In this document: one piece after another, positions 11,694 to 63,430 of the stretch
Layout: each line of letters opens with the position of its first letter
Position numbering within the stretch: the first letter of the stretch is position 1
Origin: Paenibacillus sp. FSL R7-0273
GTDB lineage: Bacteria; Bacillota; Bacilli; Paenibacillales; Paenibacillaceae
Assembly (NCBI RefSeq): GCF_000758625.1
Contig: NZ_CP009283.1
Coordinates: 6,136,001-6,200,000, forward strand
Direction: 5' to 3'
DNA: 64,000 nucleotides
Position numbers and translations under genes: made by a program
The notes under the pieces: model-generated
The model's input: the letters and a program-made list of their open reading frames with translations, nothing else
Told to the model about the DNA's origin: nothing
The model's database searches: none

Positions 11694-11880
11694 TTAAGTG
11701 GAAATTCGTCACTTATTTCTTCAAAAAAAGCCTCCAAAAGCATTTTAGTGGGAAAAACTTCACTTAATTGTTCTGTTTTCACCCAAATGAACCAAACGGA
11801 CTGAATTAGGTGCGCTTTTTCCAACTATTTCTCTCAAAGGGTAAGAAAACATAAAATTAAGTAGCCAAATTCCAACTAAT
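11694..11880. repeat. FFRR quartet element, locus 1
   Basis: Four units of about 24-26 bases at roughly 11694, 11744, 11804 and 11855. The first two read TTAAGTGGAAA...CACTTA and TTTAGTGGGAAA...CACTTAAT. The last two are the reverse complement type (AATTAGGTG...CCAACTATT and AATTAAGTA...CCAACTAAT). Unit ends are mutually complementary (TAAGTG/CACTTA). Start spacings are 50, 60 and 51 bases. Confidence 0.7.
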
Positions 11881-12047
11881 CTCAGTTGCACTCTCTCAGA
11901 ATGCCGGCTTTCCCCGTCACACTCCTATTGTGTAGAATTCAGCCCCCTTTTCCTGCCACAATCGGTATACTCCGAACCATTTCGGATTTCAATCCAGCAC
12001 AAATACCGAAAACAATTAATTTCCCAACCAGGAATCATCCGCCAAAC

Positions 12048-12061
12048 CGAAAACGTTTTCG
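12048..12061. promoter_or_regulatory. Orphan LacI/CcpA-like palindrome CGAAAACGTTTTCG
   Basis: A perfect 14-base palindrome with central CG, related to cre sites but with C/G instead of T/A at the ends. No gene starts within 500 bases on either strand, so its role is unclear. Confidence 0.45.
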
Positions 12062-12190
12062 ATAATATAATCGCTTATTTCATGCAGGCATTCAAGGCAC
12101 TGTTTTTCTGTTTTCGGGTATGATTTTTCGGTTATGCAGGGAAAAAGAGGGAGGAAGCACTTAAGGGCGGACTACAGGACATAGAGCACC

Positions 12191-12388
12191 GTTGGCTGGA
12201 GTATGGAGCACAGTTTGTTGGTACACGGAGCGTCGTTGGCCGGAGTATGGAGCACTGCTGGCTGGAGCACGGGGCATCGTTAGCTGGAGCATGGGGCACA
12301 GTTAGTTGGTGCACGGAGCGTCGTTAGCTGGAGCATGGAGCACAGTTAGTTGGTGCACGGAGCGTCGTTGGCTGGAACACGGAGCATG
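12191..12388. repeat. 22-base tandem repeat, nine copies
   Basis: Nine units of 22 bases of the form GTTrGyTGGwrCAyGGrGC plus three bases. Two alternating subtypes (ending GAGCACA and GAGCGTC) make a 44-base higher-order period. A more degenerate unit may precede it. Since 22 is not a multiple of 3, the array is probably not selected as coding sequence. Confidence 0.85.
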
Positions 12389-12645
12389 GATGGTAGGTGC
12401 CGGATACTGGACAGCACGCCCTGCGGACAGAGGGAAGCATTTTTAACAAGGTACTTCGTAGGCGGTACACCAATACCAGGATCTACACACTCTACAGTTA
12501 CCGTGCATATTGCGCATACCAGCCGCCTCTTACCAAACTTTTTACAAATGCGGCAAGAGGCTCTGGATTTATTAACTATAGCTTTATTAGTTACAGTTTT
12601 ATTAGTTACAGTTTTATTAGTTACAGTTTTATTAGTTACAGCCAT
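12346..12645 (-). CDS. Possible small Cys-rich protein with TNKTV repeats
   Basis: A 99-codon frame begins 20 bases after the fabH stop. It opens with MAVTNKTVTNKTV and continues for four in-frame TNKTV copies (15-base period, i.e. five codons). A basic Cys-rich part follows with CRIC and CAIC pairs plus three later Cys. The last 14 codons run into the 22-base array and look acquired. An AGGCGG precedes the ATG by 9 bases. The in-frame period and paired Cys favour a real protein, perhaps metal-binding or disulfide-bonded; the other strand is also open here. No family recognised. Confidence 0.35.
   Translation of the reverse strand: MAVTNKTVTNKTVTNKTVTNKAIVNKSRASCRICKKFGKRRLVCAICTVTVECVDPGIGVPPTKYLVKNASLCPQGVLSSIRHLPSMLRVPANDAPCTN
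12567..12641. repeat. 15-base tandem repeat
   Basis: Four near-identical copies of TTTTATTAGTTACAG (12582-12641) plus one diverged copy before them. The period is a multiple of three and lies within the Cys-rich reading frame. Confidence 0.9.
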
Positions 12646-12664
12646 AGCAACAACCGCCTATACG

Positions 12665-13675
12665 CTACAAAACCTCCGGCGGCGCCACCTGTTCATCCAA
12701 CTGCAGCTCGGTCAAAATACCGGCATGCGCCAGTCCGGCCCCGAAGCCGTAGAGCAGAACGCGCTGGCCGCTCTGCACCTTCCCCTCACGGATTCCGAGA
12801 TCAAGCGCAAGCGGAATACTCGCGGCAGAGGTATTGCCGAAATATTCAAGACTGTATAAAGCCTGCTCCAGCGGATAGCTCAGCCGCTCACAAACCGGTT
12901 CAATGATCCGCAGATTGGCGCTGTGCGGAATGAACCAGTCTACCTGCTCCAGCGTTGCTCCGGCATGCTCCAGCACCTGCTGCACGCCATGCGGAACGGT
13001 GCGGACAGCCCATTTGAACACCTCGCGGCCGTTTTGCACAAGCTTGCCTGAATCGCCCAGATCTACACCATTCACCGTACGTGACAGTCCGGTACGATAG
13101 ACATGATGCGCGCCGCTGCCGTCACTGCCAAGATAATGGCCGAGAAAGCGGTCCTGCTGCTCATCTGTTTCTACAAGCACTGCCCCGGCCCCGTCACCGA
13201 ACAGGATACAGGTGCTGCGGTCACTGTAATCAGTAATTTTGGATAGGGCATCCGCTCCGACAACCAGCACCTTACGGTGCAGTCCTGATGCCACATACGC
13301 ATGCGCGGTATGCAGTCCATACACAAACCCCGCACAGGCCGCACTCAAATCAACCGCCCCTGCCGTCAGCGGAATACCGAGCCGGTGCTGGATGATGGAG
13401 GCTACTGAGGGAAAAGAAAAATCGGCGGTGCTGGTAGCCACAATCACCATATCAATATCCGCTGCAGATTTACCGTAACGGGTCAGCAGATTCCGGACTG
13501 CAGCAACACACAGATCACTGGTGTGCTCATCTTCACGGCTGATTCTGCGCTCCCGGATCCCTGTACGCTGCACAATCCATTCATCGTTTGTGTCTACCAT
13601 TTGCTCCAAATCGCTATTGGTCAATCTGCGGACCGGGACATACGATCCGATGGCTGTAATTTTTGCACCCTTCAT
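12665..13675 (-). CDS. fabH: 3-oxoacyl-ACP synthase III (FabH-like)
   Basis: A 336-residue KAS III enzyme, which condenses acetyl- or branched acyl-CoA with malonyl-ACP to start fatty-acid synthesis. The catalytic triad is visible: Cys114 in SAACAGF, His251 in IPHSAN and Asn281 in FGNTSAAS. The glycine-rich FGDGAGAV loop is also present. Start ATG 13675 has GAGGTG nine bases upstream; a GTG four codons earlier is in the ribosome site itself. The gene stands alone, without fabF, like fabHB (yhfB) of B. subtilis, and carries a FapR-like box in its promoter. It could also supply a specialised starter unit; no polyketide genes are adjacent. Confidence 0.92.
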   Translation of the reverse strand: MKGAKITAIGSYVPVRRLTNSDLEQMVDTNDEWIVQRTGIRERRISREDEHTSDLCVAAVRNLLTRYGKSAADIDMVIVATSTADFSFPSVASIIQHRLGIPLTAGAVDLSAACAGFVYGLHTAHAYVASGLHRKVLVVGADALSKITDYSDRSTCILFGDGAGAVLVETDEQQDRFLGHYLGSDGSGAHHVYRTGLSRTVNGVDLGDSGKLVQNGREVFKWAVRTVPHGVQQVLEHAGATLEQVDWFIPHSANLRIIEPVCERLSYPLEQALYSLEYFGNTSAASIPLALDLGIREGKVQSGQRVLLYGFGAGLAHAGILTELQLDEQVAPPEVL

Positions 13676-13720
13676 TCTCTTAATCACCTCGTATAGTATT
13701 TTAGTTTATAGTATCTGGTA

Positions 13721-13737
13721 TTAGTACTTGGTACTAA
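13721..13737. promoter_or_regulatory. FapR-like operator upstream of fabH
   Basis: TTAGTACTTGGTACTAA is a 17-base inverted repeat (TTAGTAC, 3-base centre, GTACTAA) 46 bases upstream of the fabH start. It matches the known dyad of the malonyl-CoA-responsive lipid regulator FapR, which controls fabH genes in Bacillus. A diverged second half-palindrome (TTATAGTATCTGGTATTA) lies just beside it. Confidence 0.75.
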
Positions 13738-13869
13738 GTATAACGATTCCTCTATCCATATGCAAAGTAAACTTCTGCCTCCATTAATAATCATTACACT
13801 TATTTGGGAACAATTTGACCTGAAGTAAAGTTACATACATGTTCTGGATTAATGATTATTGCCGGAATT

Positions 13870-14153
13870 GTACAGGTAGCGATATATTCATATTGTTTTT
13901 ATTACCATGCGTTGCGGACCGTACAGATCCTGAGGAGAGATCCGTAACTATTGGCATAAGCCAGACAGTGAACCGCGTTGGACAGTTGCTTAGCCCGATT
14001 GTTTTCGGCATCTTTTCACAGAATTTAGGCGTTAACTCTTCATTCTATTTAGGAGGTGCTCTTCTGCTGCTCATCTCTGTAGCCGTTGTTTTTTTACTGC
14101 TGCTTGGAAGCAAAAAGGAGAATTTACAGAATGAACACAGTGTTGAGCTATAG
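13870..14153 (+). pseudogene. C-terminal remnant of an MFS transporter
   Basis: About 90 codons read as the end of a 12-helix major facilitator protein: ADRTDPEERSVTIGISQTVNR, then LLSPIVFGIFSQNLGVNSSFYLGGALLLL, then a final hydrophobic helix and charged tail. The first ten helices are absent, and the sequence just upstream does not continue the family. It is therefore a decayed fragment; a frame from ATG 13839 exists but lacks a ribosome site. Typical relatives are drug or sugar exporters; the original substrate is unknown. Confidence 0.75.
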
Positions 14154-14177
14154 ACATACTTTCCCCTTTATTATTAA

Positions 14178-14215
14178 CTAAAAAAAACCGTGACCTCTCA
14201 TGAGGCCACGGCTCC
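14178..14215 (-). terminator. Terminator of the pectin operon
   Basis: The hairpin CCGTGACCTC-TCAT-GAGGCCACGG is followed on the minus strand by eight T residues. It lies 40 bases after the GH28 stop. Confidence 0.85.
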
Positions 14216-14257
14216 GGTTAAATTCCCTACAAGGTTTGTTTGCGGCACTGTAAATTC

Positions 14258-15613
14258 TTACGCTTCCGCCTGTACTGCCTCCACCTGCTCAACCAGCTTT
14301 TCCGGCTTGGCAGTGTTCCTGGAGCGGCAGTTCAGCACCTCTACATCCTCACCATTTTCGATATAAAAAGCAGGCCCCTCGTGGTTCTCAACCGTTACCT
14401 GCTGAAACCGTACATCCCGTACATTTCCGAGGAAAAACCCGCGCCTGCTCATATCCGCAAGCCCTGCCATCATATCCGGCTGTCCCGGCACAGCATCCTC
14501 TGCCATCGAAATATCGACGTCAGTGAAGCTGATATCCGAAACATACTGCTCGGCCAGTCCATACAGGAAGCCTGCAGCAGCGTGAACATTACGGGCGGTA
14601 ATATTGGCAAAATGAATCCGTCGGAAGCACGGCGTCTCTGCCGTCACCGGATAAGGCTGTTTATCCCAGACATATTTCTCTTTGCCCCTCGGTCCGCAGA
14701 AATAGTACAGATTCATCGTAAACGGGCAGATAACGCCATCCATCACGATATTGCTGACCCGGATATCCTCAATGGTTCCGCCGCGCCCGCGCCGTGACTT
14801 CATACGGATGCCGCGGTCAGTCTCCTTGAACACACAATTGCTGATCGTCACATTGCGGATATCTCCGCTCATTTCACTGCCCAGCACGACCGCCCCATGC
14901 CCGTGCACCATGGTGCAGTTCGTGATTGAGATATTTTCACAGGGGATGCGCTCGGCTGTATCCTCGGTTCCCGCCTTAATGGCGATGCAATCATCGCCAA
15001 CATCAATATGGCAGTTGCTGATCCGCACCCCGGAGCAGGACTCCGGATTAATCCCGTCCGTATTCGGTGAATCCGCCGGATTCAGAATATACACATTGTC
15101 GATCGTCACATTGCTGCAGACAATCGGATTGACCGTCCAGCTCGGTGAATTGAGCAGGGTCACATCCTTCACCGTTATCCGGCTGCACCGGTTCAGGCCG
15201 ATTAGTGTGGGACGCGGATACGCCAGCTCTTCGGGCTTCTCCCTGTGCTTATACCACCAGGGCGCCCCGTTCCCCTGCAGCGTTCCGCTCCCGGTAATGG
15301 ATACATTCACCGCATCCTCTGCGTAAATACAGGGGGAATGCACCTGGCGTCCCACGCCTTCCCAGCGGGCTTCCACCGCCGGGTAGTCCGCCGGATCGGT
15401 GCTGAAGCTCAGCACCGATCCGGGACTCAGATGCAGCTCAATGTTGCTGCTAAGCCTTACAGCTCCGGTATGGAAGGTTCCTGCGGGAACATAGACTGTC
15501 CCTCCTCCAGCCCGGTTGGCGGCTGCAACCGCAGCGGCGATAGCTTCAGTCGCCGCCGTACCGCTGTCCCGCAGCGCGCCGTAATCTGCTATGTTGTACA
15601 CCTGCTGCTTCAC
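14258..15613 (-). CDS. GH28 polygalacturonase-type enzyme, cytoplasmic
   Basis: A 451-residue right-handed beta-helix enzyme of glycoside hydrolase family 28. The catalytic signature is complete: NTDG (184-187), GDD with Asp207 and Asp208, GHG (238-240) and RGIRMKS (267-273). There is no signal peptide, so it should act inside the cell on imported oligogalacturonides or rhamnogalacturonan fragments, probably as an exo-enzyme. It is the last gene of the operon, 13 bases after GH105, which would process the unsaturated ends. The frame opens with GTG 15613; another GTG four codons on sits better behind AAGGAG, so the start is uncertain by four codons. Confidence 0.9.
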   Translation of the reverse strand: MKQQVYNIADYGALRDSGTAATEAIAAAVAAANRAGGGTVYVPAGTFHTGAVRLSSNIELHLSPGSVLSFSTDPADYPAVEARWEGVGRQVHSPCIYAEDAVNVSITGSGTLQGNGAPWWYKHREKPEELAYPRPTLIGLNRCSRITVKDVTLLNSPSWTVNPIVCSNVTIDNVYILNPADSPNTDGINPESCSGVRISNCHIDVGDDCIAIKAGTEDTAERIPCENISITNCTMVHGHGAVVLGSEMSGDIRNVTISNCVFKETDRGIRMKSRRGRGGTIEDIRVSNIVMDGVICPFTMNLYYFCGPRGKEKYVWDKQPYPVTAETPCFRRIHFANITARNVHAAAGFLYGLAEQYVSDISFTDVDISMAEDAVPGQPDMMAGLADMSRRGFFLGNVRDVRFQQVTVENHEGPAFYIENGEDVEVLNCRSRNTAKPEKLVEQVEAVQAEA

Positions 15614-15626
15614 TCCTTAATCCGAT

Positions 15627-16745
15627 TTATTCCCCTTTATCAGCCTGTGTGTACAAAGCTTCCATCTCTACACAAGCCATCACCAGCGCCCCAACGCCGT
15701 GAAGATCATTGCTTACTTTCGGACGGGTTACGTAATTCTCGTAGTCCCCCGCCGAGGTGCCGATGCAGATGTCCGGCAGAATCAGCCGTCCCTGCTCATC
15801 CTCCTGCAGCACTCCAATCAGCCCTTCGTAGCCTATCCGGGCAGCCGCCGCAGCCTTCGCCTCATCAACCGCAAGGCCCAGCTTCACCGCCTTGGCTATG
15901 GTATAGACGAACAGGCATGAGCCTGAGGTCTCCAGCCAGTTATCCGGCTCATCGCCTTTATCGACTACCTGATACCAGAGCCCGCTCTCCTTGTCCTGAT
16001 AGCGGATCAGCGCCTGCACGAAATCGCCGAGTGCAGCGGCAAGCTCTGCCCGCCCCGGCTCCTCCTCCGGCAGCAGCTCAAGAAACTGCGATAGTGCCAG
16101 CCCGTACCAGCCGAGTGAACGGCTCCAGAACTCAGGGGAGCAGCCGGTCTGCGGATTCGCCCAAGGCATGCGTCTGCTCTCATCCCAGGCATGATAGAGC
16201 AGGCCCGTAGCTTCATCCCTCATATACTTGCGCATCAGCTGCTCCTGGTGCAGCACCGCCTGGCGCAGCTCCGGCTCGCCGTAGGCCTCCGCATATTTCA
16301 GCGAGAACACCCCGGCCATGTACAGGCCGTCAAGCCACATCTGATACGGATATTTGTCCTTGTGCCAATATCCGCCTTCGGCTGTCCGGTTGACGGTCCG
16401 CAGCAGACTCCGCAGTTTATCAGCGGCCGTCTTGTATTTGTCCAGACCCGTCCGCTCATGCAGTGTGAATAGGAGCAGTCCGGCCTGAACTGCATCCAGT
16501 TCATCACGGGCAAAATACAAATTACCGTGACCATCGACCAGATCATCTACATACTCCTGAATGTAGGTCAGGTAACGCTCTTCACCCGAAGCTGACCACA
16601 GCAGCTCCATTCCGCACAGGAATACACCCTGATGGTAGTGCCAGCGGTGGGCAGGAGGAAGCTCTCCCGCCCGGTACGTATCCATTAATGAATCACAGGC
16701 CTTGCGTGCCCATTCTATCGGTGTTGCCGGCAGACTGCCTATCAT
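15627..16745 (-). CDS. GH105 unsaturated rhamnogalacturonyl hydrolase
   Basis: A 372-residue (alpha/alpha)6-barrel protein of family GH105 (YteR/YesR type). These enzymes hydrate the 4,5-double bond left by pectate or rhamnogalacturonan lyases and release the unsaturated uronic acid. The expected catalytic Asp is D139 in MWLDGLYMAG, and the aromatic PPAHRWHYHQGVF motif near 30-43 is also typical. It has no signal peptide and acts on imported disaccharides. GGAGGAGG precedes the ATG. It is the fourth gene of the pectin operon, between the second permease and GH28. Confidence 0.9.
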   Translation of the reverse strand: MIGSLPATPIEWARKACDSLMDTYRAGELPPAHRWHYHQGVFLCGMELLWSASGEERYLTYIQEYVDDLVDGHGNLYFARDELDAVQAGLLLFTLHERTGLDKYKTAADKLRSLLRTVNRTAEGGYWHKDKYPYQMWLDGLYMAGVFSLKYAEAYGEPELRQAVLHQEQLMRKYMRDEATGLLYHAWDESRRMPWANPQTGCSPEFWSRSLGWYGLALSQFLELLPEEEPGRAELAAALGDFVQALIRYQDKESGLWYQVVDKGDEPDNWLETSGSCLFVYTIAKAVKLGLAVDEAKAAAAARIGYEGLIGVLQEDEQGRLILPDICIGTSAGDYENYVTRPKVSNDLHGVGALVMACVEMEALYTQADKGE

Positions 16746-16762
16746 CGTTCCTCCTCCTTTCC

Positions 16763-17638
16763 TTAACCCTTCATTGAACCAAGCATAGCCCCTTTAGCAA
16801 AATGCTTCTGCAGGAACGGATACACCATCAGAATCGGCAGTGTCGCTACTACGATAACCGCCATTTTGATGGACTGGTCCGGCGGCGGAACGGCCGCATC
16901 CAGCGTGGCACTGTGATCCATACCGCTGGCCAGGACAACGATCTGCCGCAGCAGAACCTGAATCGGCCATTTGGCGCTGTCATCCAGATAGAGAATCGCA
17001 CTCATGTAAGTGTTCCAGTAAGTTACCGCGTAGAACAGGGAGATTGTAGCAATGGCCGGCATGGACAGCGGCAGCACGATCCGGAACAGGATGCCGAAGT
17101 CGTTGCACCCGTCGATTTTGGCTGATTCCTCAAGCCCTTCGGGGATGTTCTGGAAAAAGTTTTTGAGAATGATCATATTAAACGCACTGATCGCCGACGG
17201 CAGGATAAGCGCCGCATACGAATCGATCAGACCCAGCTCTTTTACCACCAGGAACGTCGGAATCATCCCGCCATGGAACAGCATCGTGAACACAACCAGA
17301 AAGTTAACCACATTGCGTCCGTCAAGGTCTCTTCTGGAGAGCCCGTAAGCCATTAGTGCCGTGATGAACATACTGAACAGCGTACCAATCAGTGTAACGC
17401 CAATTGAGACACCCATTGCTTTAAAAATTGTATCCGTGGAAAAAATAAATTTATACGCCTCCAGACTCCATACCTTCGGAATCAGTACAAACTTGCTGGC
17501 CGCAATCTCCGCACTTGTCGTAAAAGAGCCCGCCACCACATGCACAAACGGCAGCACGGTAATGAGCGCAATCAGCGCCAGCAGCGTAAAGTTAACAGCG
17601 GCAAACACCCTGCCGCCCAGCGATCTGTCCTCTACCAT
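16763..17638 (-). CDS. CUT1 sugar ABC permease (LplC/YtcP type)
   Basis: A 291-residue permease with six hydrophobic segments and an EAA loop (LEESAKIDGCNDFGILFRIVLPLSMP, near residues 185-210). The C-terminus YPFLQKHFAKGAMLGSMKG is the hallmark of LplC/YtcP-like second permeases for complex oligosaccharides. It pairs with the upstream permease to form the membrane pore. No ATPase is encoded here; such systems usually share an MsmX-type ATPase encoded elsewhere. It has a GGGAGG site and a 31-base gap to the preceding gene. Confidence 0.92.
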   Translation of the reverse strand: MVEDRSLGGRVFAAVNFTLLALIALITVLPFVHVVAGSFTTSAEIAASKFVLIPKVWSLEAYKFIFSTDTIFKAMGVSIGVTLIGTLFSMFITALMAYGLSRRDLDGRNVVNFLVVFTMLFHGGMIPTFLVVKELGLIDSYAALILPSAISAFNMIILKNFFQNIPEGLEESAKIDGCNDFGILFRIVLPLSMPAIATISLFYAVTYWNTYMSAILYLDDSAKWPIQVLLRQIVVLASGMDHSATLDAAVPPPDQSIKMAVIVVATLPILMVYPFLQKHFAKGAMLGSMKG

Positions 17639-21362: not shown

Positions 21363-21562
21363 GCAAGTTTGTTTAACTGGTCTGCGGCAATAGTTGTGCG
21401 ATATATAGTTATGTAGTGCGGGGACTGGTTTGGTGCTTTATGTGTGTTGAACACACTAATTCCCTTGGCTGCTGAGCCATTAGTACCCTGGTGCTGCTCA
21501 CAGTATGAGTTAATGTTACTTTGAAATCCCGTACCCCGACGCTAGCACTCACTCCGCCAGTC

Positions 21563-21745
21563 TAACGGACTCAGATGACGTTATTTCCGGGATTTCGGGG
21601 TTTCGCGGAGTTTAACGGACACCAGAGACGTTACTTACCGCTGAAAGGTTCATATTGGTGCTTTTCAGCATGAATAGCGTCATCTGAGTCCGCTAGAAAT
21701 CCAAAACGTGCGCAGAGCACCGGATAACGTCTCCTGGGTCCGTTA
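21563..21745. repeat. FFRR quartet element, locus 2
   Basis: Four 22-base units at 21563-21584, 21613-21634, 21674-21695 and 21724-21745. The first two read TAACGGAC...GACGTTA; the last two are reverse complements. Spacings are 50, 61 and 50. Unit 3 has TAGCG/CGCTA where unit 1 has TAACG/CGTTA: a paired change that keeps the terminal stem. Confidence 0.85.
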
Positions 21746-21964
21746 AAATTTAGCGAAGCTCCAAGAACAGAGCCTGAAGCGTTCATGGCAGCCTCCCAGT
21801 CCATTAGCCACACATGACGCTCTGATAAACAGCGCCAAGCACACCTTTATCTGCATCTCAGTCCTTGGCATCCGTCCCGCCCGCAGCATTTGCGGCGGGC
21901 GGGCGAAGAGTCCAAGACAAAGATTAAAGAGCACGAAAGCAGGTTCGTTCCCTGCCCCAAAACA

Positions 21965-22121: not shown

Positions 22122-22673
22122 TCAATCCAACTGCATTGTAGCTACACACGTATCATTCTGCTCAAAGGTAGAGATCTCCGACTCTGCCTTTTTGCCGTTC
22201 TGTTCGATCGTTACATTATACGTCTTGTCCCGCGGCAGCCATAAATCGATGAAGCCGTTAGGCTGGGACTTCACGGTCTGCCTGTCCATCACCTGGTTGC
22301 CCTCGGCATCCTGAACCGATACGCTGAACTCTTCCTCCACCAGCTCTCCCTGGCAGCCGGTCAGGCTGTGAATAGCGCACGGGTGCGTCTTGTTCACATA
22401 AGGGGCAATGGAGACAAAAAATTCGTCCTCCGGCAGGCTGTAGCTGGCAGACTTCCCGTCCGTTTCCTTCACAATAAGCTGCGTGGATGAGATTGATGCT
22501 GATTCCGCTGTCAGCGTGCGGCTGCTGTAATCCTGCACCATCTGTTTAAGCGCTGTTGTATCTAATGCCGAGTCTGAGGCCGCACCTTCCCGGCTGCCAT
22601 TTCCCGTGTAAAAATAGGCTCCTGCCGCAATGATTAATGCTAACCCGGCAGTCAGCAAGACTGTTTTTTTCAT
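22122..22673 (-). CDS. cueP: CueP-family copper-binding protein
   Basis: A 183-residue exported protein with an N-terminal hydrophobic anchor (residues 4-22) without a lipobox. The body matches CueP: EDEFFVSIAPYVN, THPCAIHSLTGCQGEL and GFIDLWLPRDK, with the three conserved Cys at 99, 107 and 176 (NDTCVATMQLD). In Salmonella CueP binds copper in the periplasm, reduces it and supplies it to SodCII; in Gram-positives it would act at the outer face of the membrane. AGGAGG precedes the ATG. It is a single-gene unit with its own terminator; no copper ATPase or CsoR is adjacent. Confidence 0.88.
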   Translation of the reverse strand: MKKTVLLTAGLALIIAAGAYFYTGNGSREGAASDSALDTTALKQMVQDYSSRTLTAESASISSTQLIVKETDGKSASYSLPEDEFFVSIAPYVNKTHPCAIHSLTGCQGELVEEEFSVSVQDAEGNQVMDRQTVKSQPNGFIDLWLPRDKTYNVTIEQNGKKAESEISTFEQNDTCVATMQLD

Positions 22674-27833: not shown

Positions 27834-29660
27834 TTATTTTTTCAAATGATAGGGCACTGTAGTTATAATTACATTTCTGCGGTACAAGAGATGTGTACGG
27901 ATCAGCAGACTGGACTGGTTATGAAGAATGTTATGCCAGCCCTTTTTGGGAATGAACTGCGGCACAATCACCGTCACCTGGTAATGCGATTCCCCCGCCT
28001 TGCGCTGCACGGTATCAATAAATTTGATCAAGGGATGAATGATGCTGCGGTACGGCGAGTACAGCGACACCAGCCTGATTTCAGGATGGAATTTTTTCCA
28101 CTTTTCCTCAAACATATGCTCTTCCTCCCGCTCAAAGGGCACATGCACCGCAATAATCTGGCTGGGGGACAGCGACTGTGCATAGCGCAGCGAGTTCTCC
28201 ACGACATGCGTAATCCCGGCCACCGGCAGGATAATCACATTGCCTTCAATCGCCAGCGGCTTCTCTTCGCAGGTAGAGAGACGTAGCTGGTCGGCCACGG
28301 CCTCATAGTGCTTGCGGATCCGGTAAAAGAGCAGAATAATCAGCGGCAGGAAAATCAGCACCGGCCACACCTGCGGGAACTTGGTCAGGAAGAACATAAT
28401 CGTCACCACGAAGCTGATCAGCGCCCCGGTTGTGTTAATGGCCAGCTTGCCTGCCCAGCCCTGCGGCTTTTCACGGATCCATTTAATCATCATCCCGCTC
28501 TGCGACAGGGTAAAGGGAATAAACACCCCAACTGCATACAGCGGAATCAGATGCTCCGTGCGGCCCTCGAAGGCAATAATCAGTATGATCGACAATACGC
28601 CCAGGCTGAGAATACCATTGGAATACCCGAGCCGGTCGCCGCGGACCGTGAACATTCTCGGGATAAATTTATCCTTAGCCAGATTAACCGCCAGCAGCGG
28701 AAAGGCGGAATAGCCCGTGTTCGCCGCCAGAACCAGGATGAGTGCAGTAGTCCCCTGTATAAAAAAATACATGCCGTTACGGCCGAAAACCTGCTCGGCA
28801 ATCTGCGAAACCACTGTCACCTGCTCATTCGGGGTTACACCGTAATAATAAGCCAGAATAACGATACCGGAAAAAAGCACCGCCAGCAGAATGCCCATAG
28901 CTGACAGCGTTTTGGCCGCATTGTTCGGGGCAGGCGCCTTAAAGTTGGGAATCGCATTGGAAATCGCCTCTACCCCGGTCAGCGCAGAGCTCCCTGAAGC
29001 GAAGGCCCGCAGCAGCAGAAACAGGCTGATGCCAGCGACCGGCGTACCGATCGGAGTATGCAGCTCTGCCGGAACGTCACCGGCCACAATCCGGAACAGG
29101 CCCACGCCAAGCATAATAAAGATAGCCAGCACGAACAGGTACACCGGATAAGCCAGGAACGATGCGGATTCGGTAACCCCGCGCAAATTGAGCGTTGTAA
29201 TCAGCAGTACGAATAGTATGGCAACAGGTACATTATAAGGATGCAGACCGGGAAAAGCCGAAGTAATCGCATCGGTCCCCGCCGATACACTTACCGCTAC
29301 GGTCAATATATAGTCGACCAGCAGCGAGCCCCCGGCAATCAGTCCGGGGTATTTGCCCAGATTCTCCTTGGACACTACATAAGCTCCGCCGCCCTGCGGG
29401 TACGCATAAATAATCTGTCTGTAGGATAAGATCAGTGCAGTCAGCAGCACAAGCACCCCTAGGGCGATGGGGACGGAATACCAGAATGCTGCTGCACTGA
29501 TCGTCACCAGCACCAGCAGAATCTGCTCCGGACCGTAAGCCACCGAGGATAAAGCATCTGATGAGAGGATAGCCAGCGCCTTCGTCTTGTTCAGTTTCTG
29601 GTCGCCCAATTGCTCCGATTTCAGCGGCCGTCCGATCAGTAACCTTTTTACCGAAATCAT
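27834..29660 (-). CDS. kimA: KimA-type APC-superfamily potassium importer
   Basis: A 608-residue membrane protein, the length of B. subtilis KimA (YdaO). The first 450 residues form about 12 helices with the family blocks RRLLIGRPLKS-like N-terminus, KALAILSSDALSSVAYG, YPQGGGAYVVSKENLG and SLLVDYILTVAVSVSAGTDA. The soluble C-terminal part (about 470-608) is the USP-like domain that binds c-di-AMP in characterised homologues. KimA is a high-affinity proton-coupled K+ importer that is shut by c-di-AMP. Start ATG 29660 has GGGTGAGG upstream; 32 open codons before it lack a site. A ydaO-type riboswitch, present before kimA in B. subtilis, was not seen here. Confidence 0.85.
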   Translation of the reverse strand: MISVKRLLIGRPLKSEQLGDQKLNKTKALAILSSDALSSVAYGPEQILLVLVTISAAAFWYSVPIALGVLVLLTALILSYRQIIYAYPQGGGAYVVSKENLGKYPGLIAGGSLLVDYILTVAVSVSAGTDAITSAFPGLHPYNVPVAILFVLLITTLNLRGVTESASFLAYPVYLFVLAIFIMLGVGLFRIVAGDVPAELHTPIGTPVAGISLFLLLRAFASGSSALTGVEAISNAIPNFKAPAPNNAAKTLSAMGILLAVLFSGIVILAYYYGVTPNEQVTVVSQIAEQVFGRNGMYFFIQGTTALILVLAANTGYSAFPLLAVNLAKDKFIPRMFTVRGDRLGYSNGILSLGVLSIILIIAFEGRTEHLIPLYAVGVFIPFTLSQSGMMIKWIREKPQGWAGKLAINTTGALISFVVTIMFFLTKFPQVWPVLIFLPLIILLFYRIRKHYEAVADQLRLSTCEEKPLAIEGNVIILPVAGITHVVENSLRYAQSLSPSQIIAVHVPFEREEEHMFEEKWKKFHPEIRLVSLYSPYRSIIHPLIKFIDTVQRKAGESHYQVTVIVPQFIPKKGWHNILHNQSSLLIRTHLLYRRNVIITTVPYHLKK

Positions 29661-29850
29661 CGTCTGCCTCACCCGACTTTTTTTAAAGTTATAGTGCCCT
29701 GGGAAGCCGTTATTAAATTCAATCCATAATATACATCTCACCAGCTGCCTGCGCAACAGATTTCATTCGCCGTAGAACCGAAAGGTATCATTAACGTAAA
29801 AATGCAGCATGCGGCTGGTTGAAGCCGCGTGCTGCAGAAGAATAACGAGT

Positions 29851-29913
29851 GGTTGGGTTGGGTTGGGTTGGGTTGGGTTGGGTTGGGTTGGGTTGGGTTG
29901 GGTTGGGTTGGGT
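29851..29913 (+). repeat. GGTTG pentanucleotide array, 12.6 copies
   Basis: A perfect run of twelve GGTTG units plus GGT (63 bases). The plus strand therefore carries a dozen GGG tracts separated by TT, a strong G-quadruplex and slippage candidate. The non-multiple-of-three period would shift any frame. Confidence 0.98.
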
Positions 29914-29942
29914 AACATATTCCACCTGCTCCCTGTAACGGC

Positions 29943-30125
29943 TAACGGACACCAGCGACGTTATCTACGGGTATTTGGTACTTTGTTAGTCCTAACGGAC
30001 CCCAGCGGCGTTATTTACCGTAGTTACTGCATTTCTAAGGTGTTTTCACTAGAATAACGTTTCTCAGGTCCGTTAGTTCTCAACTGTCTGCTTTTTCGGA
30101 GCAATAACGCCTCCTCAGTCCGTTA
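29943..30125. repeat. FFRR quartet element, locus 3
   Basis: Units at 29943-29964 and 29993-30014 (TAACGGAC...GCGTTAT type) and reverse-complement units at 30054-30075 and 30104-30125 (ATAACG...GTCCGTTA). Spacings are 50, 61 and 50, the same as at locus 2, whose core sequence it shares. Confidence 0.85.
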
Positions 30126-30276
30126 GAAGTATGATACTAAACCTGCTGCTACAATGCAGCTGTCGGCACGTGAAATTGCGGTTCAAACGTGAATCCACTA
30201 CCGTAAACATTGAATCGTAATCAGAATGCACCTTTACTTGGCACATCATTACTAGAATACCTGCACTATCCCCCGC

Positions 30277-30693
30277 CTACAGCCAGTCCTCTGCCAGCAG
30301 CTGCTTCAGCAGCTTTACCTTTTCCGCGCCGATTTTTGCCGAGATCTCCTGCTCGATCCTTTGCTTGACCTCCAGCATTCTGCGGCACACGTCCAGCCCT
30401 TCTGCGGTTAGCGCTATATATTTATCGCGGCTGTTGCCTTCTACCTGAACGGTCTCTACATACCCGCGCTCCAGCAGGGCATTTACAACCTTCTGCGCCC
30501 CCTGGCGGGAGATGCTGATCCTCCGGCTGATGTCCGAGATGGACAGCCTGCCGTGCAGCTCGAGCTTGGCGAGAATATGCGTCTCTGTATGATTCAGCGG
30601 ATCACCGCTGTCCGTGCTTACCTTTTCACGCAACACCTTATGCTTTTCACTGACCAGGTCAATCAGATTTAAGCCGCGGATATATTCCTTCAT
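30277..30693 (-). CDS. MarR-family transcriptional regulator
   Basis: A 138-residue winged-helix protein. The core GRLSISDISRRISISRQGAQKVVNALLERGYVETVQVEGNSRDKYIALTAEG is a MarR DNA-binding domain with its wing, flanked by dimerisation helices at both ends. Start ATG 30693 follows GGAGG by eight bases. It is divergent from two small membrane-protein genes, and a perfect palindrome lies in the shared promoter, so it very likely represses that pair and possibly itself. Inducer unknown. Confidence 0.88.
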   Translation of the reverse strand: MKEYIRGLNLIDLVSEKHKVLREKVSTDSGDPLNHTETHILAKLELHGRLSISDISRRISISRQGAQKVVNALLERGYVETVQVEGNSRDKYIALTAEGLDVCRRMLEVKQRIEQEISAKIGAEKVKLLKQLLAEDWL

Positions 30694-30747
30694 CAACAAG
30701 GCCTCCAGTTATCAGGTTACATTTCCAGTTTGTATGTTCATCGCCAT

Positions 30748-57649: not shown

Positions 57650-57775
57650 TGTACTTCCTCCTAATCTTGTTGTTTGCTCGTTACCTATCATATGTAATTT
57701 CAGAAATCAGCACATCTGCACAGCGGTTGATCTTTAGCCGTCCAGCCTCTATCTGAAGATATACAGTCACCTCCT

Positions 57776-58444
57776 TCACTCTACCAATCCTGTACGGATC
57801 GCCAGAACCACAGCCTTGGTACGGTCTTCAACTTCGAGCTTTTGAAGGATACGGTGTATATGCGTTTTTACCGTTCCCTGTGAAATATTCAGCATTCCGG
57901 CAATTTCCGCATTGTTGCGGCCATAAGCCATTTGCTGCAGCACATCCAGCTCGCGTTCAGTCAGCTCTTCCCCCAGATGGCCTGACGGCTGCGCTAGTCC
58001 GATTCTTTTTCCATAATCCGCAATTGCTCTGGCAAGTGCCTTACTCGCTGTAGGGGTTCTGTAAATGGCGTTCCCCTGGTCAGCCCAGCGGATTCCATCC
58101 AGAATGTCCTGCATTTCCGTGTCTTTTAACAAATAACCGGCAGCACCGGCACGTATGCCCTCAATAACATAAGCTTCGACATCGAACGTTGTCAGCAGCA
58201 CGATCCGGATTTCAGCATTTTCGCTCAGGATACGCTGAGTTGCCTCAATTCCCGATAAGACGGGCATCTGAATGTCCATCAGAATAATATCCGGCTTGGT
58301 ATCAGCCGCTAACCGGCAGGCAGCTTCCCCGTCCTCCGCCTCACCTGCACACTCCATGTCAGGCTGAGCATCGATGATATATCTCAGTCCCTGGCGGACA
58401 AACGGCTGATCATCGGCAATGACCACTCTGATTATTTTTCCCAT
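57776..58444 (-). CDS. NarL/LuxR-type response regulator
   Basis: A 222-residue regulator. The receiver domain has ADD at 10-12 and phospho-acceptor Asp57 in LMDIQMP; the C-terminal LuxR helix-turn-helix is ELTERELDVLQQMAYGRNNAEIAGMLNISQGTVKTHIHRILQKL (about 157-202). It overlaps the kinase gene by 13 bases. GGGGAG precedes the ATG. The pair is of the LiaRS/DesKR/YdfHI kind; targets are unknown. Confidence 0.92.
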   Translation of the reverse strand: MGKIIRVVIADDQPFVRQGLRYIIDAQPDMECAGEAEDGEAACRLAADTKPDIILMDIQMPVLSGIEATQRILSENAEIRIVLLTTFDVEAYVIEGIRAGAAGYLLKDTEMQDILDGIRWADQGNAIYRTPTASKALARAIADYGKRIGLAQPSGHLGEELTERELDVLQQMAYGRNNAEIAGMLNISQGTVKTHIHRILQKLEVEDRTKAVVLAIRTGLVE

Positions 58445-59625
58445 CTCTGCTCCCCCTGCATTTCTTCTAGAGCTGCTGCTTCAACCGGAAGGATGACCTG
58501 CACCCGGAAACCATGCGGTTCCACCGCTGAAAATGTACAGCTGCCTCCCCCTGCCTTACAACGCTCTGCTATCCCTTTTAGCCCAAACCCCATATTTACC
58601 TGTTCTCCTCCGGCTGTTGTTCCGTTATCTGTAACTGTCAAGCAGATGGTGTCGTTCATTTCCTCAAGCTCTACGTCAACTATGGTTGCATCTGTATGCC
58701 GCAGCACATTTGTTAAGGACTCCTGGAGCACACGATACAGGATTATGCTTGTTTCAATAGACCACTCCGATCCTTCAGAATGCTGGCTGAAATTAAGCTG
58801 GACAGGTGTCCTTCCCCGGGTCTGTGATATAAGTCCCTTGAGCGCCACGCTCCCCAGTCCCATCTCATCATTTGACCATTCCTTGACGGCAATCCGAACC
58901 TCTTCCATCGCCTGGCGGGCAATATCAGTCAGCTGCTCCACCGCCTCAGCTGCTCTCGCCGGGTCTGTAGCCTGCATAATCTTAAGCGCCTGCAGTTGGA
59001 TAATCAGCGAGGTCAGCTGATGGCCGAGCCCGTCATGAATTTCCCGGGCCAGTCTGGTCCGCTCCTCCAATGCAGCATAGCGCACCGAGTACATATTCGC
59101 TTCATGAAGCTCATTATGTGCTGCTTCAAGCTCCTGGTGAACCCGGTTCAGCTCCTCCAGATGCTGCCTGGTCAGCTGATGCGTATCGCGTCTGATTTTG
59201 GAGTTCCTGGCAAGCAGGAATGCGCCGAGCAGACCCATAACAGTTGTGAAGGACAGAGAGTAGATAACAAAGATCACCCCCAAAACCAGCAGGCCGATCG
59301 CAATGTTAATCCTTCGGTAATCATGAGTCATGAACACGATCATGAAAAACAGCGGCCAGATCAGGCTCGGGTGCAGTGAGCCATATATAGAATACAGTAA
59401 TATATCAACTGCAATAATCATTAAGGAAGCCGTGAAGTAGACAGCTTCTGTCCGCCAGCGCTTCGGTGCCCAAATCAATAATGCATATACTAAAAGGACG
59501 AGCCCCCCGCCTGCAAGGTGAAGCCGGCCCAGGTGCTCATAATCATGATAATAAGTTGCCGTTAACAAAACTGTGCCTAGTATACGCGCCAATAGCTTAT
59601 ACATTCTTTGCTCATACAGAAACAT
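58432..59625 (-). CDS. HisKA_3-type sensor histidine kinase
   Basis: A 397-residue kinase. Five or six membrane helices fill the first 140 residues with almost no extracellular domain, so the signal is probably within the membrane. A coiled coil (about 150-180) leads to HisKA_3 with His in RLAREIHDGLGHQLTS and an HATPase domain (ESLTNVLRHTDAT, VTDNG, GFGLKGIAERC). Start ATG 59625 follows GGGGTGAG; 19 upstream codons have none. Partner of the NarL-type regulator. Confidence 0.92.
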   Translation of the reverse strand: MFLYEQRMYKLLARILGTVLLTATYYHDYEHLGRLHLAGGGLVLLVYALLIWAPKRWRTEAVYFTASLMIIAVDILLYSIYGSLHPSLIWPLFFMIVFMTHDYRRINIAIGLLVLGVIFVIYSLSFTTVMGLLGAFLLARNSKIRRDTHQLTRQHLEELNRVHQELEAAHNELHEANMYSVRYAALEERTRLAREIHDGLGHQLTSLIIQLQALKIMQATDPARAAEAVEQLTDIARQAMEEVRIAVKEWSNDEMGLGSVALKGLISQTRGRTPVQLNFSQHSEGSEWSIETSIILYRVLQESLTNVLRHTDATIVDVELEEMNDTICLTVTDNGTTAGGEQVNMGFGLKGIAERCKAGGGSCTFSAVEPHGFRVQVILPVEAAALEEMQGEQRWEK

Positions 59626-59680
59626 ATACTCACCCCGATTAATATTAACATGCCAATAATTATCATAGTATAACCGCAAC

Positions 59681-59722
59681 AAAAAAGCCCTGATGCATCA
59701 AGGCTGGCTTGAGCATCAGGGC
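59681..59722 (-). terminator. Terminator of the second GH28 gene
   Basis: GCCCTGATGC pairs with GCATCAGGGC around a loop that itself has a short TCAAG/CTTGA stem; six T residues follow on the minus strand. Confidence 0.9.
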
Positions 59723-59733
59723 CATTCTTTATT

Positions 59734-61077
59734 TTATTTATTGGTTATACTGTAATCCTCCAGCTGCAGCTGCCCGACGTTCTCAAATGTAACGCTCTTG
59801 CCTGCAGCAGTCTTAACCTTGAACCCCTTCAGACTGATGCTCCCGACATCACTGCAGATTAAAGCGCGGTCTGCGCTGAGGTTTATCTTTTCCAGACTGA
59901 TGTTGTTCAGACGGTGCTCAGGGAGCCCCTTGATCTCTACAGCTATTGCGGCTCCTTCACCGCTGATGTCCTTAATGCTGATATTGCTGAAATCGGAAGG
60001 CGTGCTGGTCTTGGGAACCACAGTGCTGTACCCGTAGAACATATTGATCTGCACGGCTTCTTCTCTAACATTATTGATCTTGATCTGCTCAAACCGGATA
60101 TTGTCCACGTAGCCGCCTCTCCCCCGCATCGACTTCAGCCGGATACCCCGGTCTCCGCCATGGATGGTGCAGTTGTGGGCATACACATTCCGGACTCCGC
60201 CGGACATTCCGCTGCCGATCACAAGTCCCCCGTGTCCTTCCTTCATCACACAATTACGAATGACAATGTTCTCACAGGGCCTGTTGACCCGCCAGCCGTC
60301 CTCATTCATGCCGGAATTGATCGCGATGCAGTCATCCCCGGTCTCAAAGCTGCTGTCCTCAATTAGCACATTGCGGCAGGAATCCGGGTTCAGCCCGTCG
60401 GTGTTGGGACCGCAGCTGACAATATCAATCCCGCGGATAATAACATTCTCGCAATAGACCGGATGCACCGTCCACTGGGGGCCGTTATGAATCGCGACTC
60501 CCTCAATCAGCACATTCCGGCAGCGGACCGGCTGGATGAACGAGGGGCGCAGGGCTGCCTCCTCCGTACCGAAGACCCGCTCCTTAACAGGAATCCCGTC
60601 TCTTTCGGCATAACAGAGCTTATCGGCTGCGGTCTGCTGGAGCTTTTTCCAGTGCCACCAAGCCTCCCCGTTTCCATTCAGCGTGCCCTCACCGGTAACC
60701 GCAATATTGTCGCAGTCAATGGCGTAGATCAGCGGAGAATAGTTATAGCATTCCATCCCCTCCCATCTTGTAAAAACCGGCGGAAGATAATCGGTAAAGG
60801 CATCACTAAAGGTAATGACCGCCCCCTTTTCCACAGACAGGTGGACATGACTATTTAAATGGATAGGGCCTGAGGGCCACTCCCCCGGAGATACGATAAC
60901 CGTACCGCCTCCTTGTGTGGAGCAGTCATCCACAGCCCGCTGTATCGCGTGAATATCCTCAGACATCCCCGTGTCAGGCAGCCGGTAATCCTCAGCCCGG
61001 AAGGACCGCTGCGGAAAATCCGGCTCCCGGATTTCCTCCATTTCAAAAGGGGCTCCGTAGAAATTGGTTTTGAGCAT
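59734..61077 (-). CDS. Second GH28 polygalacturonase-type enzyme
   Basis: A 447-residue beta-helix enzyme with the full GH28 site: NTDG (225-228), GDD with Asp248-249, EGHGG (His282) and RGIRLKS (310-316). It shares only moderate similarity with the operon enzyme at 14258. There is no signal peptide, so it too is likely intracellular. It is a single gene with its own promoter region and terminator, divergent from a chemoreceptor. The start has AGGAGG eleven bases upstream. Confidence 0.9.
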   Translation of the reverse strand: MLKTNFYGAPFEMEEIREPDFPQRSFRAEDYRLPDTGMSEDIHAIQRAVDDCSTQGGGTVIVSPGEWPSGPIHLNSHVHLSVEKGAVITFSDAFTDYLPPVFTRWEGMECYNYSPLIYAIDCDNIAVTGEGTLNGNGEAWWHWKKLQQTAADKLCYAERDGIPVKERVFGTEEAALRPSFIQPVRCRNVLIEGVAIHNGPQWTVHPVYCENVIIRGIDIVSCGPNTDGLNPDSCRNVLIEDSSFETGDDCIAINSGMNEDGWRVNRPCENIVIRNCVMKEGHGGLVIGSGMSGGVRNVYAHNCTIHGGDRGIRLKSMRGRGGYVDNIRFEQIKINNVREEAVQINMFYGYSTVVPKTSTPSDFSNISIKDISGEGAAIAVEIKGLPEHRLNNISLEKINLSADRALICSDVGSISLKGFKVKTAAGKSVTFENVGQLQLEDYSITNK

Positions 61078-61308
61078 TGATATTAATTCCTCCTACTCCT
61101 TCTAATGTATATACAAAAACCAAGTGAGACGCGCTCCATCAATAGCCTGCTGCTTCTCATCCAGAATCTCCTGGTAGCCGGCTTCCTGCATCAAAATAGT
61201 AACATGCTAAAATCCGGCCATGAATGGATAAAAGAACCCGGCACTTGTAAAATTCGAGCTTCAGCACCCGCGGTCCGAAACTTTTTTAATTATCAAAATT
61301 TGTATAGC

Positions 61309-61336
61309 TACAATTCAATGGGAGATCTGTCGATAT
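61309..61336 (+). promoter_or_regulatory. Sigma-D-like promoter of the chemoreceptor gene
   Basis: TACA, a 16-base spacer, then GTCGATAT (61329-61336), close to the motility sigma factor consensus TAAA-N15-GCCGATAT. It is 45 bases before the chosen start. Confidence 0.6.
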
Positions 61337-61380
61337 ACATACAGACGTATATATTTTGCATCAAGTTGAGGAGTGGGAAT

Positions 61381-63117
61381 TTGAAGAACCAATGGGGAAA
61401 AGTATTAGAGAGATTGAGGCTTACCATCCGGATGAAACTACTGGCCGGATTTCTGGTTGTAGCTGCACTGCTTGCCTTTGTAAGTATTTATGCCTTAACT
61501 CAGATTCACGGTATGTCTACAAGTGCTGAAGAAATTGACCAAAAGTGGATGCCTAGTGTCAGCCTGCTGGGGATGATGAACGGGGATGTCTCAGATGTGG
61601 AGCGTCTCGCTCTTGCAGTTATTGTGGAGACGGATCAAAACCAGGTTACTGAAATGAATGAAACCCTCCAGCAGCTGCTGGCCAAAATTGAAAATGAGCG
61701 TAAAGAGCTGATTACACTACTTAACGGCGATCCTACGGCATTGGCATTATATGATACCTTCAGTACCAACTACGATGCTTATATCGCCAAGATGCCTGCT
61801 TTTGTGGAGCGGGGGATTGCCAACGATTTCGGGGAAGCAAGCAAGCTGCATACAGAGTCCTATCCGCTCTGGTACACAGCCAATGATACAATTGCTCAAC
61901 TGATTACATTAGGCAACGATTTGTCGAAGCAGGCTACCAAAAACTCGCTGGAGTCAGCAGAACAAACCTTTAATGTCATTCTGGCCGTAACGATTGTTTC
62001 TTTCCTGCTTGCTTTATTCATTGCCTTCTTCATTGCAAGTATCATCTCAAAGCCTATTCAAAAGATGAATGCTTCAGCAATGCTGATTGCAAACGGTGAT
62101 TTGACCGGCGAAATGATTACACTAAAAAATAAGGATGAGCTTGGTACACTCGCGGCTTCCTTCAATACCATGACAGGCAACCTGCGCGCGATGATTCAGT
62201 CCGTTTCCATGACCTCAGAGCAGGTGGCCGCTTCTTCGGAGGAACTGCTTGCGAGTGCAGAGCAGAATGCCAAGGCATCCGAGCAAATCTCTGAAACCGT
62301 TGAGCTCCTGGCAGCAGGTACAACGGAGCAGGCTAACATAGTGAAACGTTCCTCCCAGGCGATGAGCGAAATGTCTCTAGGCTCCGAGCAAATTGCCCAG
62401 CTTGCCCAGAGTGTATCCGTATCTGCTATAGACGCTGCGAATCAATCGTCGGAAGGAAACCGGATTGTCCACCAGGCAGTAGAACAGATGAGCTCAATCC
62501 GCTCTTCAATCGCTTCTCTGACAGAGCTGGTTACGGGGCTTGGAGAACGCTCTGCAGAGATTGGCAGTATTACCGGAGTTATCAATAATATTGCCCGTCA
62601 GACTAACCTGCTTGCATTGAATGCGGCTATCGAGGCTGCGCGTGCGGGTGAGCATGGCCGTGGATTCGCCGTTGTGGCCGGAGAAGTACGTAAGCTGGCC
62701 GAAGAATCCTCAGTATCGGCTCAGAAGATTACAGATCTGGTACAGCTCATTCAGAATGATACCAACCACGCTATAGAGGCTGTAAAAGTAAACAGCAGTG
62801 AAACAGAGGCCGGGATTGAGATTGTGACAGCAGCCGGACAAGCCTTCGGACAAATCTCTGAGGCGGTAACTAAGGTAGCCGGTGAAATTCAGGAGGTATC
62901 TGCCGGTTCGGAAGAAATGTCAGCCAGCACAGACGAATCAGTGCAGTATATGGAACAAATCTCGAACATTGCCCAAGAGTCATCAGGCGAAGTACACAAT
63001 GTATCTGCTGCAACTGAAGAACAGCTGGCCTCCATGGAGGAGATTGCAGCCTCAGCAAGCGCCCTCTCCAAGATGGCAGAGGAACTGCAGGAGCAGATCA
63101 ATAAGTTTAAAATCTAA
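61381..63117 (+). CDS. Methyl-accepting chemotaxis protein
   Basis: A 578-residue chemoreceptor. A basic N-terminus, membrane helix (about 18-38), a four-helix-bundle sensor of about 150 residues (4HB_MCP type), second membrane helix (about 193-218), HAMP ([21 protein letters not shown]), then the signalling coiled coil with the conserved tip [40 protein letters not shown]. Start TTG 61381 follows GAGGAG by seven to eight bases; the frame is open far upstream with no site. The sigma-D-like promoter fits motility control. Proximity to GH28 hints at sugar-acid sensing, but that is only suggestive. Confidence 0.93.
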
Positions 63118-63243
63118 CTATACAACGTAAATATGAAGCTAACAAAACGCCTTCTGTTCCCGCTTTAGGTGAAACGGCGAGCAGCGGATTGAGTTCCCCT
63201 GCCAACCGCTACCCTCAGCCAGTGGGTTTAGGCTCAAATCAAG

Positions 63244-63430
63244 TTAAGTGTACTTTGTACAATTAAAACAGAGGAAATGAATCATTATAAGAAAATAACT
63301 GTATTCTGTACATCTATTGTTCTCAAAAAAGCCAGTTTCGGGCGTTTTTAGCAGATATAAGTGTACAGAATACAGTTAAAACCTGCAGCGGAGCTAGTTA
63401 GTCAGGTTTAGTTGCAGAAAGTACAGTTAT
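63244..63430. repeat. FFRR quartet element, locus 4
   Basis: Cores GTACTTTGTACA (63250) and GTATTCTGTACA (63301) forward, then TGTACAGAATAC (63362) and TGCAGAAAGTAC (63413) in reverse. The middle pair forms a perfect 16-base inverted repeat (AACTGTATTCTGTACA). Spacings are 51, 61 and 51. Confidence 0.75.

Follow-up and report, generated by a model that had tools for sequence, protein, structure and literature searches.

The window analysed here, a 64-kb stretch of the chromosome of Paenibacillus sp. FSL R7-0273 (the host, genome label G000), holds at four loci an element of about 185 bp built of four units, two forward and then two reversed (FFRR; units F1, F2, R1 and R2). The spacing of the units is kept exactly while their sequence changes between classes of elements; this speaks for a DNA-wrapping site not yet described, more than for an RNA element or a random repeat. 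The idea, first proposed from the window alone, that selection acts on a protein spacing of some five and six helical turns is strongly supported by an open grid of spacings, unit profiles, the phase of A/T-rich DNA and retention in orthologues. We put at about even the chance that the element is a wrapped nucleoprotein platform of class-specific dimers that serves at gene 3′ ends as an architectural barrier; the barrier role at gene 3′ ends, taken alone, is perhaps somewhat doubtful. No description of a family of this layout was found in titles and abstract openings of the open-access papers searched, a scope outside which most subscription papers and all bioRxiv preprints fall.

The original prediction had placed FFRR quartets at four loci of the window. 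A sequence-free scan, in which the layout alone was fixed (four 22-mers, FFRR, spacings 48–53/57–65/48–53), recovered all four within 1 base of the predicted positions, with scores of 104, 103, 102 and 89; the next-best position in the window scored 74, and three Markov shuffles peaked at 65, 66 and 68. In a common unit register the predicted spacings hold for elements 2–4; element 1 reads 51/60/51, the earlier 50/60/51 being one base off. Profile matches bear out that elements 2 and 3 have like cores (both class A) and that elements 1 (class B) and 4 (class C) differ from them. The quartets and their units are as follows.

11694..11879, no strand assigned: element 1, class B quartet F-F-R-R, spacing 51/60/51
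11694..11717, + strand: element 1 unit F1 (class B), profile match
11745..11768, + strand: element 1 unit F2 (class B), profile match
11805..11828, - strand: element 1 unit R1 (class B), profile match
11856..11879, - strand: element 1 unit R2 (class B), profile match
21562..21746, no strand assigned: element 2, class A quartet, spacing 50/61/50
21562..21585, + strand: element 2 unit F1 (class A), profile match
21612..21635, + strand: element 2 unit F2 (class A), profile match
21673..21696, - strand: element 2 unit R1 (class A), profile match
21723..21746, - strand: element 2 unit R2 (class A), profile match
29942..30126, no strand assigned: element 3, class A quartet, spacing 50/61/50
29942..29965, + strand: element 3 unit F1 (class A), profile match
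29992..30015, + strand: element 3 unit F2 (class A), profile match
30053..30076, - strand: element 3 unit R1 (class A), profile match
30103..30126, - strand: element 3 unit R2 (class A), profile match
63244..63430, no strand assigned: element 4, class C quartet, spacing 51/61/51
63244..63267, + strand: element 4 unit F1 (class C), profile match
63295..63318, + strand: element 4 unit F2 (class C), profile match
63356..63379, - strand: element 4 unit R1 (class C), profile match
63407..63430, - strand: element 4 unit R2 (class C), profile match

The host chromosome is 7.29 Mb long; our sample was made up of 60 stretches of 20 kb at even intervals, plus 400 kb more on and around the window. This comes to 1.644 Mb as read, or 1.61 Mb once overlaps are removed (22% of the chromosome). 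Over the 60 stretches the sequence-free scan gave 65 matches scoring at least 72, against one in shuffled sequence, so that the genome scan came out in favour of the original prediction. Control geometries with arms of 38–43 or 58–63 gave 5–7 matches; those that kept the 48–53 arm and had a wrong centre gap still gave 44 and 48, because tandem arrays with a period of 51–52 bp (see below) satisfy them. Thus, the sequence-free scan establishes the 51-bp arm, and the 61-bp centre rests on the unit profiles. On an open grid (arm 25–80, centre 25–110) an arm of 50–52 was found in 69 of 87 non-redundant quartets; the 87 quartets, like the 65 matches, take in the 51–52 bp tandem arrays. A chance origin was rejected on the window shuffles, the 60-stretch scan and the arm peak of the open grid.

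Unit profiles of the three classes found, in the same sample, 42 clusters of four units, 2 triples, 4 pairs, 62 single units and one cluster of six, the last being a class A element with extra matches and one B-scored unit. The single-unit matches at the profile cut-off are mostly due to chance, as reversed-sequence controls suggest; the geometry is nearly all-or-none, the 42 clusters comparing with six pairs or triples and the single six-unit cluster. Classes were mixed in none of the 42. Spacing was 50/61/50 in 7 of 8 class A clusters, 51/61/51 in 16 of 20 class C clusters, and either 51/60/51 (8 of 14) or 51/61/51 (5 of 14) in class B; the others are off by 1 bp, save one with a 42-bp arm and one ending in F. 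A geometry filter was passed by 40 of the 42 (8 A, 14 B, 18 C). Extrapolation from 42 clusters in 1.61 Mb gives ∼190 elements per genome.

The spacers, which do not obviously pair, have a feature of their own in that they bear a 10-bp A/T phase. With elements aligned on the dyad, spacer A/T content is periodic at 10.1 bp with an amplitude of 0.145 (300 within-spacer shuffles: mean 0.012, maximum 0.023), and the element flanks show an amplitude of 0.014, within their own shuffle range. The peaks come about once per turn from the dyad out to the outer edge of the outer units, a span of 186 bp that runs through the dyad. Given this phase, the centres of all units share one helical face, some ±3 and ±8 turns away from the dyad. 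A period of 10.1 bp was also found in quartets of G022, the nearest relative in the set (n = 12), and in 22 entries from other species, not all of them independent (at least one element is entered twice, three are tandem copies, two Bacillus loci are reused and L174 is doubtful). The period is 10.2 bp in G015 (n = 14), 10.0 bp in G014 (n = 20) and 10.4 bp in two Bacillus genomes (n = 16), samples in which copies share spacers and so are not independent. The DNA repeat in nucleosomes is near 10.2 bp. Since a phase below 10.5 bp points to a left-handed, nucleosome-like wrap, the observed values suggest that the wrap of the element would be left-handed.

The elements could, alternatively, be gyrase or topoisomerase stations like BIMEs, in which a type II topoisomerase is wrapped by the phased A/T arms next to gene 3′ ends and a helper protein is recruited by the palindromic units. 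Their bias to gene 3′ ends agrees with such a role; gyrase is not known to depend on four class-specific palindromes. The Escherichia coli gyrase motif, as given in the available part of PMC6379681, is likewise a long dyad motif with phased A/T bends, having phased GC arms and A/T where the minor groove faces the protein. However, in that motif, ∼130 bp long, the two arms have a 10.75-bp phase and the central cleavage part is not described as periodic in the same part of the source (PMC6379681). It has no specific palindromes, whereas the element has four specific units and its 10.1-bp phase continues through the dyad over 186 bp. We consider a gyrase station improbable.

Units within a locus agree with each other, as had been claimed, but the agreement is with the class. 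Two class C units from one locus resemble each other no more than two from different loci; for class A pairs F1-F2, F1-R1 and F2-R2 and the class B pair F2-R2, likeness is weakly higher within a locus. At position 11 of class B, 26 of 28 inner units have A, as against 4 of 28 outer ones (p 2.4e-9), a difference expected of a complex with distinct positions. The near-palindromic units, with F and R complementary by layout, might instead form an RNA element, either transcribed hairpins or a long F1-R2/F2-R1 duplex. Halves of one class A unit are indeed slightly more complementary than shuffled halves (p 0.008); in classes B (p 1.0) and C (p 0.99) they are no more complementary than halves from different units, and in none of the three classes do F1-R2 and F2-R1 show extra likeness within a locus compared with between loci. 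The absence of pairing covariation in B and C argues against RNA structure; selection on hairpin pairing of the REPIN type was likewise not seen in B and C, with a weak sign in A. Furthermore, the spacers follow the phase of double-helical B-DNA, and Rfam at gathering thresholds matched 5S and 23S rRNA alone in the window, no family covering the elements. The RNA-structure role, one of those initially put forward, fared badly, and we regard it as very improbable indeed.

For comparison of the host with G022 15 rows (14 loci) were available, and 10 were counted; the four loci excluded had G022 units lost or scrambled. In the 10 orthologous quartets 802 of 960 unit bases (84%) and 556 of 901 spacer bases (62%) were kept, and spacings differed by at most 2 bp (at most 1 bp in nine pairs); in the 30-bp flanks 224 of 600 bases were kept in an ungapped comparison, which overstates flank divergence. 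Some quartet loci are present in only one of the two genomes; at one G022-only site the host retains a single unit, pointing to deletion. The site 3′ of the lacI-family gene is occupied by class B in the host and G022 and by class C in G009, G011 and G015; other lacI orthologues fetched had no quartet downstream at a cut-off of 74. Synteny past the element is visible in G009 and G011 and not established for G015. The class difference may reflect replacement, independent gain or a change of core.

Across the genus, 25 of 61 genomes hold class B pairs, and no genome gave a control match. Class A pairs reach at least 12 matches and at least three times their own control in 21 of 61 genomes, chance matches occurring at the mismatch level used. 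Many of the copies listed in G014, G015, G003, G052 and G060 have common spacers, so the elements multiply; this supports the early suggestion of a dispersed (mobile) family. Interior sequence is common among copies in G014, G015 and Bacillus and is not obvious by eye between most host copies. We also saw three whole quartets with flanks in tandem at two places in G009, L025:2071-2890 and L141:10554-11480 (∼317 and 372 bp apart), which is a local duplication of complete elements.

One could take the elements for miniature non-autonomous transposons, with a transposase binding two direct sites per end (the inverted repeat/direct repeat, IR/DR, plan). On this view old copies are fossils, and phased bends would bring the ends of the 185-bp element close to each other. 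Species-specific bursts with shared spacers in the five genomes above and in Bacillus, and the patchy distribution of classes (that of class B in particular), are what such transposons would leave. Yet in 39 own copies and 20 from G014, compared at all offsets, no target-site duplication of at least 4 bases was detected, a search that would miss eroded ones, and peaks of 2- and 3-base direct repeats in own copies fall within units. Some G014 and G015 copies share sequence past the units without a common end (by eye), and units are better kept than spacers in those orthologues that score as quartets, so that standing copies look constrained. The elements are too short to encode a transposase; the search for an autonomous partner covered Y1 transposases alone. 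We hold the transposon account to be unlikely, though it is the most serious of the alternatives. In view of the apparent constraint on standing copies, and with no target-site duplication seen, we take mobility as a property of the family and not as its whole explanation.

Among known dispersed repeats, REPINs have conserved spacers, and BIMEs prefer gene 3′ ends; these and REPs share with our elements the form of dispersed intergenic palindromes in several sequence families. What is invariant in our elements, in distinction to them, is the 50/61/50 double-helix geometry, the spacers being free in sequence but helically phased. The bcr1 and other repeats of Bacillus resembling miniature inverted-repeat transposable elements are also small, intergenic and prone to bursts in Bacillales; bcr1, however, is defined by sequence, and our elements by geometry with changing cores. 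REPs, according to the available part of PMC3733652, are short palindromes with a conserved terminal tag, and linked Y1-type transposases act on single-stranded REP DNA. Among 24 genomes searched for the Y1 transposase domain (PF01797), a set without G022, matches were absent from G000 and G001 and present in some other carriers, e.g. G003, G007, G014 and G015. Since none was found in the host, the elements need no Y1 transposase, and mobilisation by RAYT was ruled out as a requirement for the host genome. The bcr1 paper is in the reference list of PMC2267715. With regard to phage or plasmid origin, a class C element compared with phages, and one class A and one class B element compared with plasmids, had no match; nor did one exact class B pattern in viral contigs.

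A further class, TARNCGGANNNNNTCCGNYTA, is represented by 57 units in L172 (Bacillus sp. MM2020_1) and 162 in L190 (a Bacillus metagenome-assembled genome), with 2 and 1 units in the respective controls; the same search gave no excess over control in four Paenibacillus genomes. Quartets were found in 14 of 20 Bacillus stretches, chosen for holding TARNCGGANNNNNTCCGNYTA units, and fall into two spacer subfamilies. Among 80 named loci around a permease gene, 10 had matches scoring at least 82: seven quartet-like (five Paenibacillus, two Bacillus), one doubtful (Bacillus) and the remaining ones tandem arrays in one Bacillus and one Cohnella locus. No quartet was seen at permease loci of the B. 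subtilis group and Listeria, each at most 22 kb long, so that absence means little. Quartets with other cores were noted at single loci: TTAACGGG..CCCGTTAA at L147:17523 (G003), TTAGGGA..TCCCTAA at L136:1135 (G001), TAGTCCGA..TCGGACTA at L192:11822 (P. oryzisoli) and TAACGAAC at L167:8360 (Paenibacillus sp. FSL A5-0031).

The tandem arrays appear to be a sister layout. Among array periods of at least 30 in the own-genome sample, 51 (22 arrays) and 52 (8) are conspicuous; the period next in frequency has 8. We analysed 29 entries with at least 2.5 copies (25 after merging). All 29 have an A/T phase of 10.15–10.45 bp, each above at least 96% of shuffled units, and 16 have units with a 20-bp window in which at least 14 of 20 positions are palindromic, as do 12% of shuffled units; the other 13 reach 12 positions, common by chance. 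The arrays are the quartet plan set head to tail, one palindrome per five turns. Central palindromes were seen in many of them, e.g. TAAAGGGAAAAATCCCTTTA, CAAAGGCAAAAATGCCTTTG and CAACGGGATTTTTACCGTTA; L029:15792-16353, L083:19005-19413, L240:17106-17824 and L040:18305-18783 are examples of intergenic arrays.

The plasmid site sopC consists of 43-bp repeats with a palindrome, bound by SopB. Quartets and 51/52-bp arrays might, by analogy, be centromere- or partition-like sites for ParB-like proteins: in both cases palindromes are repeated at helical spacing and are probably bound and wrapped by a dimeric protein, and the A/T-phased tandem arrays with palindromic windows bring the same head-to-tail arrangement. 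Partition arrays, on the other hand, belong to plasmids or to a single locus, whereas our elements are FFRR dyads of several classes, with ∼190 quartets scattered over the chromosome. A partition role seems to us quite improbable. With more hope, though tentatively, we propose a superfamily of nucleosome-like-phased wrapping sites in Paenibacillus and Bacillus, built of palindromic operators at intervals of five helical turns, arranged either in FFRR quartets or in head-to-tail arrays; its plan would be conserved while the core and presumably the protein turn over, even at one orthologous site.

Gene context was taken from simple open reading frame (ORF) calls, 5 further quartets at stretch edges being left out. 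Divergent gaps are avoided (1 of 35 quartets versus 66 of 329 gaps, p 0.01) and convergent gaps favoured (12 of 35 versus 60 of 329, p 0.04); with an earlier ORF caller, 2 of 28 were divergent and 11 convergent, 3 lay at edges and 9 overlapped called ORFs. One or more gene 3′ ends point into almost every gap that holds an element, and it is there that an architectural barrier would be expected. With regard to a possible replacement of intrinsic terminators by the elements, a hairpin with a T-run precedes the element at 6 of 41 element-facing gene ends, compared with 36 of 126 other ends, the stretch lengths examined being different. Between 2.5 and 4.4 Mb of G000 we found 2 quartets in 16 sampled stretches versus 21 in the other 44; quartet-holding stretches number 2 of 16 versus 17 of 44 (p 0.066, not significant). 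It is a hint only that quartets are sparse near the presumed terminus (GC-skew switch near 3.9 Mb), and the replication element also envisaged in the original prediction is not supported.

Taken together, each element could be a platform of double-stranded DNA for one dyad-symmetric nucleoprotein complex. Its four near-palindromic operators of ∼22 bp have their centres some ±30.5 and ±81 bp away from the dyad. With ∼10.15 bp to the helical turn they would share one face of the DNA, successive operators being separated by 5, 6 and 5 turns, and the A/T-rich steps at each turn of the spacers would let the DNA bend and wrap around bound protein. Each core class (A, B, C, the Bacillus class and others) may have its own putative dimeric DNA-binding protein, four dimers of which would bind cooperatively and wrap the element. 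The complex might then act as a barrier that holds supercoils, insulates neighbouring genes or stops read-through; the family would disperse as repeats and afterwards be retained by selection. What the data show directly is the geometry, the phasing, the uniform class of each quartet, retention in orthologues, one site at which the class differs between species, and the copy bursts; the binding protein, the wrap, its handedness and the function are all things that we infer. Such a family, defined by helical geometry and not by sequence, would be missed by ordinary repeat finders and points to a new class of sequence-specific DNA-wrapping proteins in well-studied soil bacteria. By extrapolation, close to 200 natural variants in one genome would make a test bed for the joint evolution of spacing, bending and recognition, and the elements offer a way of studying what keeps neighbouring genes apart in Gram-positive chromosomes.

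Several findings weigh against a wrapped platform with a barrier role. The preference for gene context is modest, a bias and not a rule, and no avoidance of divergent gaps is seen among the related tandem arrays (5 of 23, with 10 of 23 in convergent gaps). The contrast of inner and outer units fails correction in class C (best p 7.3e-4, 96 tests) and in class A (0.03). The retention argument comes from one species pair, in which a locus entered the count only where its copy in G022 had kept a quartet score, and this favours conserved units. Turnover is fast: 4 of the 14 compared loci are degenerate in G022, and further G000 loci have no visible counterpart there. In view of the copy bursts with common spacers, some of the conservation could reflect recent descent and not function. 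Finally, of 20 G015 copies fetched, 19 were aligned and 14 passed the de novo scan; at least 5 of the 19 have lost a unit. By eye, L317, L323, L330, L334 and L335 have each apparently lost one R unit through an exact-period deletion between R1 and R2.

As to the surroundings in the window, element 1 lies 3′ of the LacI-family gene (10393-11559, + strand), and short tandem arrays follow it at 12184-12386 (22/44-bp units) and 12568-12641 (15-bp units). Element 2 is ∼375 bp past the 3′ end of a cueP-like gene (22122-22673, - strand). Element 3 is located between the start of an amino-acid permease gene (27834-29756, - strand) and the 3′ end of a MarR-like gene (30277-30699, - strand); immediately 5′ of it, at 29851-29913, GGTTG is repeated ∼12.6 times, a telomere-like run possibly able to form a G-quadruplex. 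Element 4 has for neighbours the 3′ end of a chemoreceptor gene (61105-63117, + strand) and that of an rRNA operon (5S at 63640-63756, - strand). It resembles, by eye, a class C element far away on the chromosome (L084:235-420) in both spacers and flanks, a duplication that may be explained by the rRNA operon beside the window copy.

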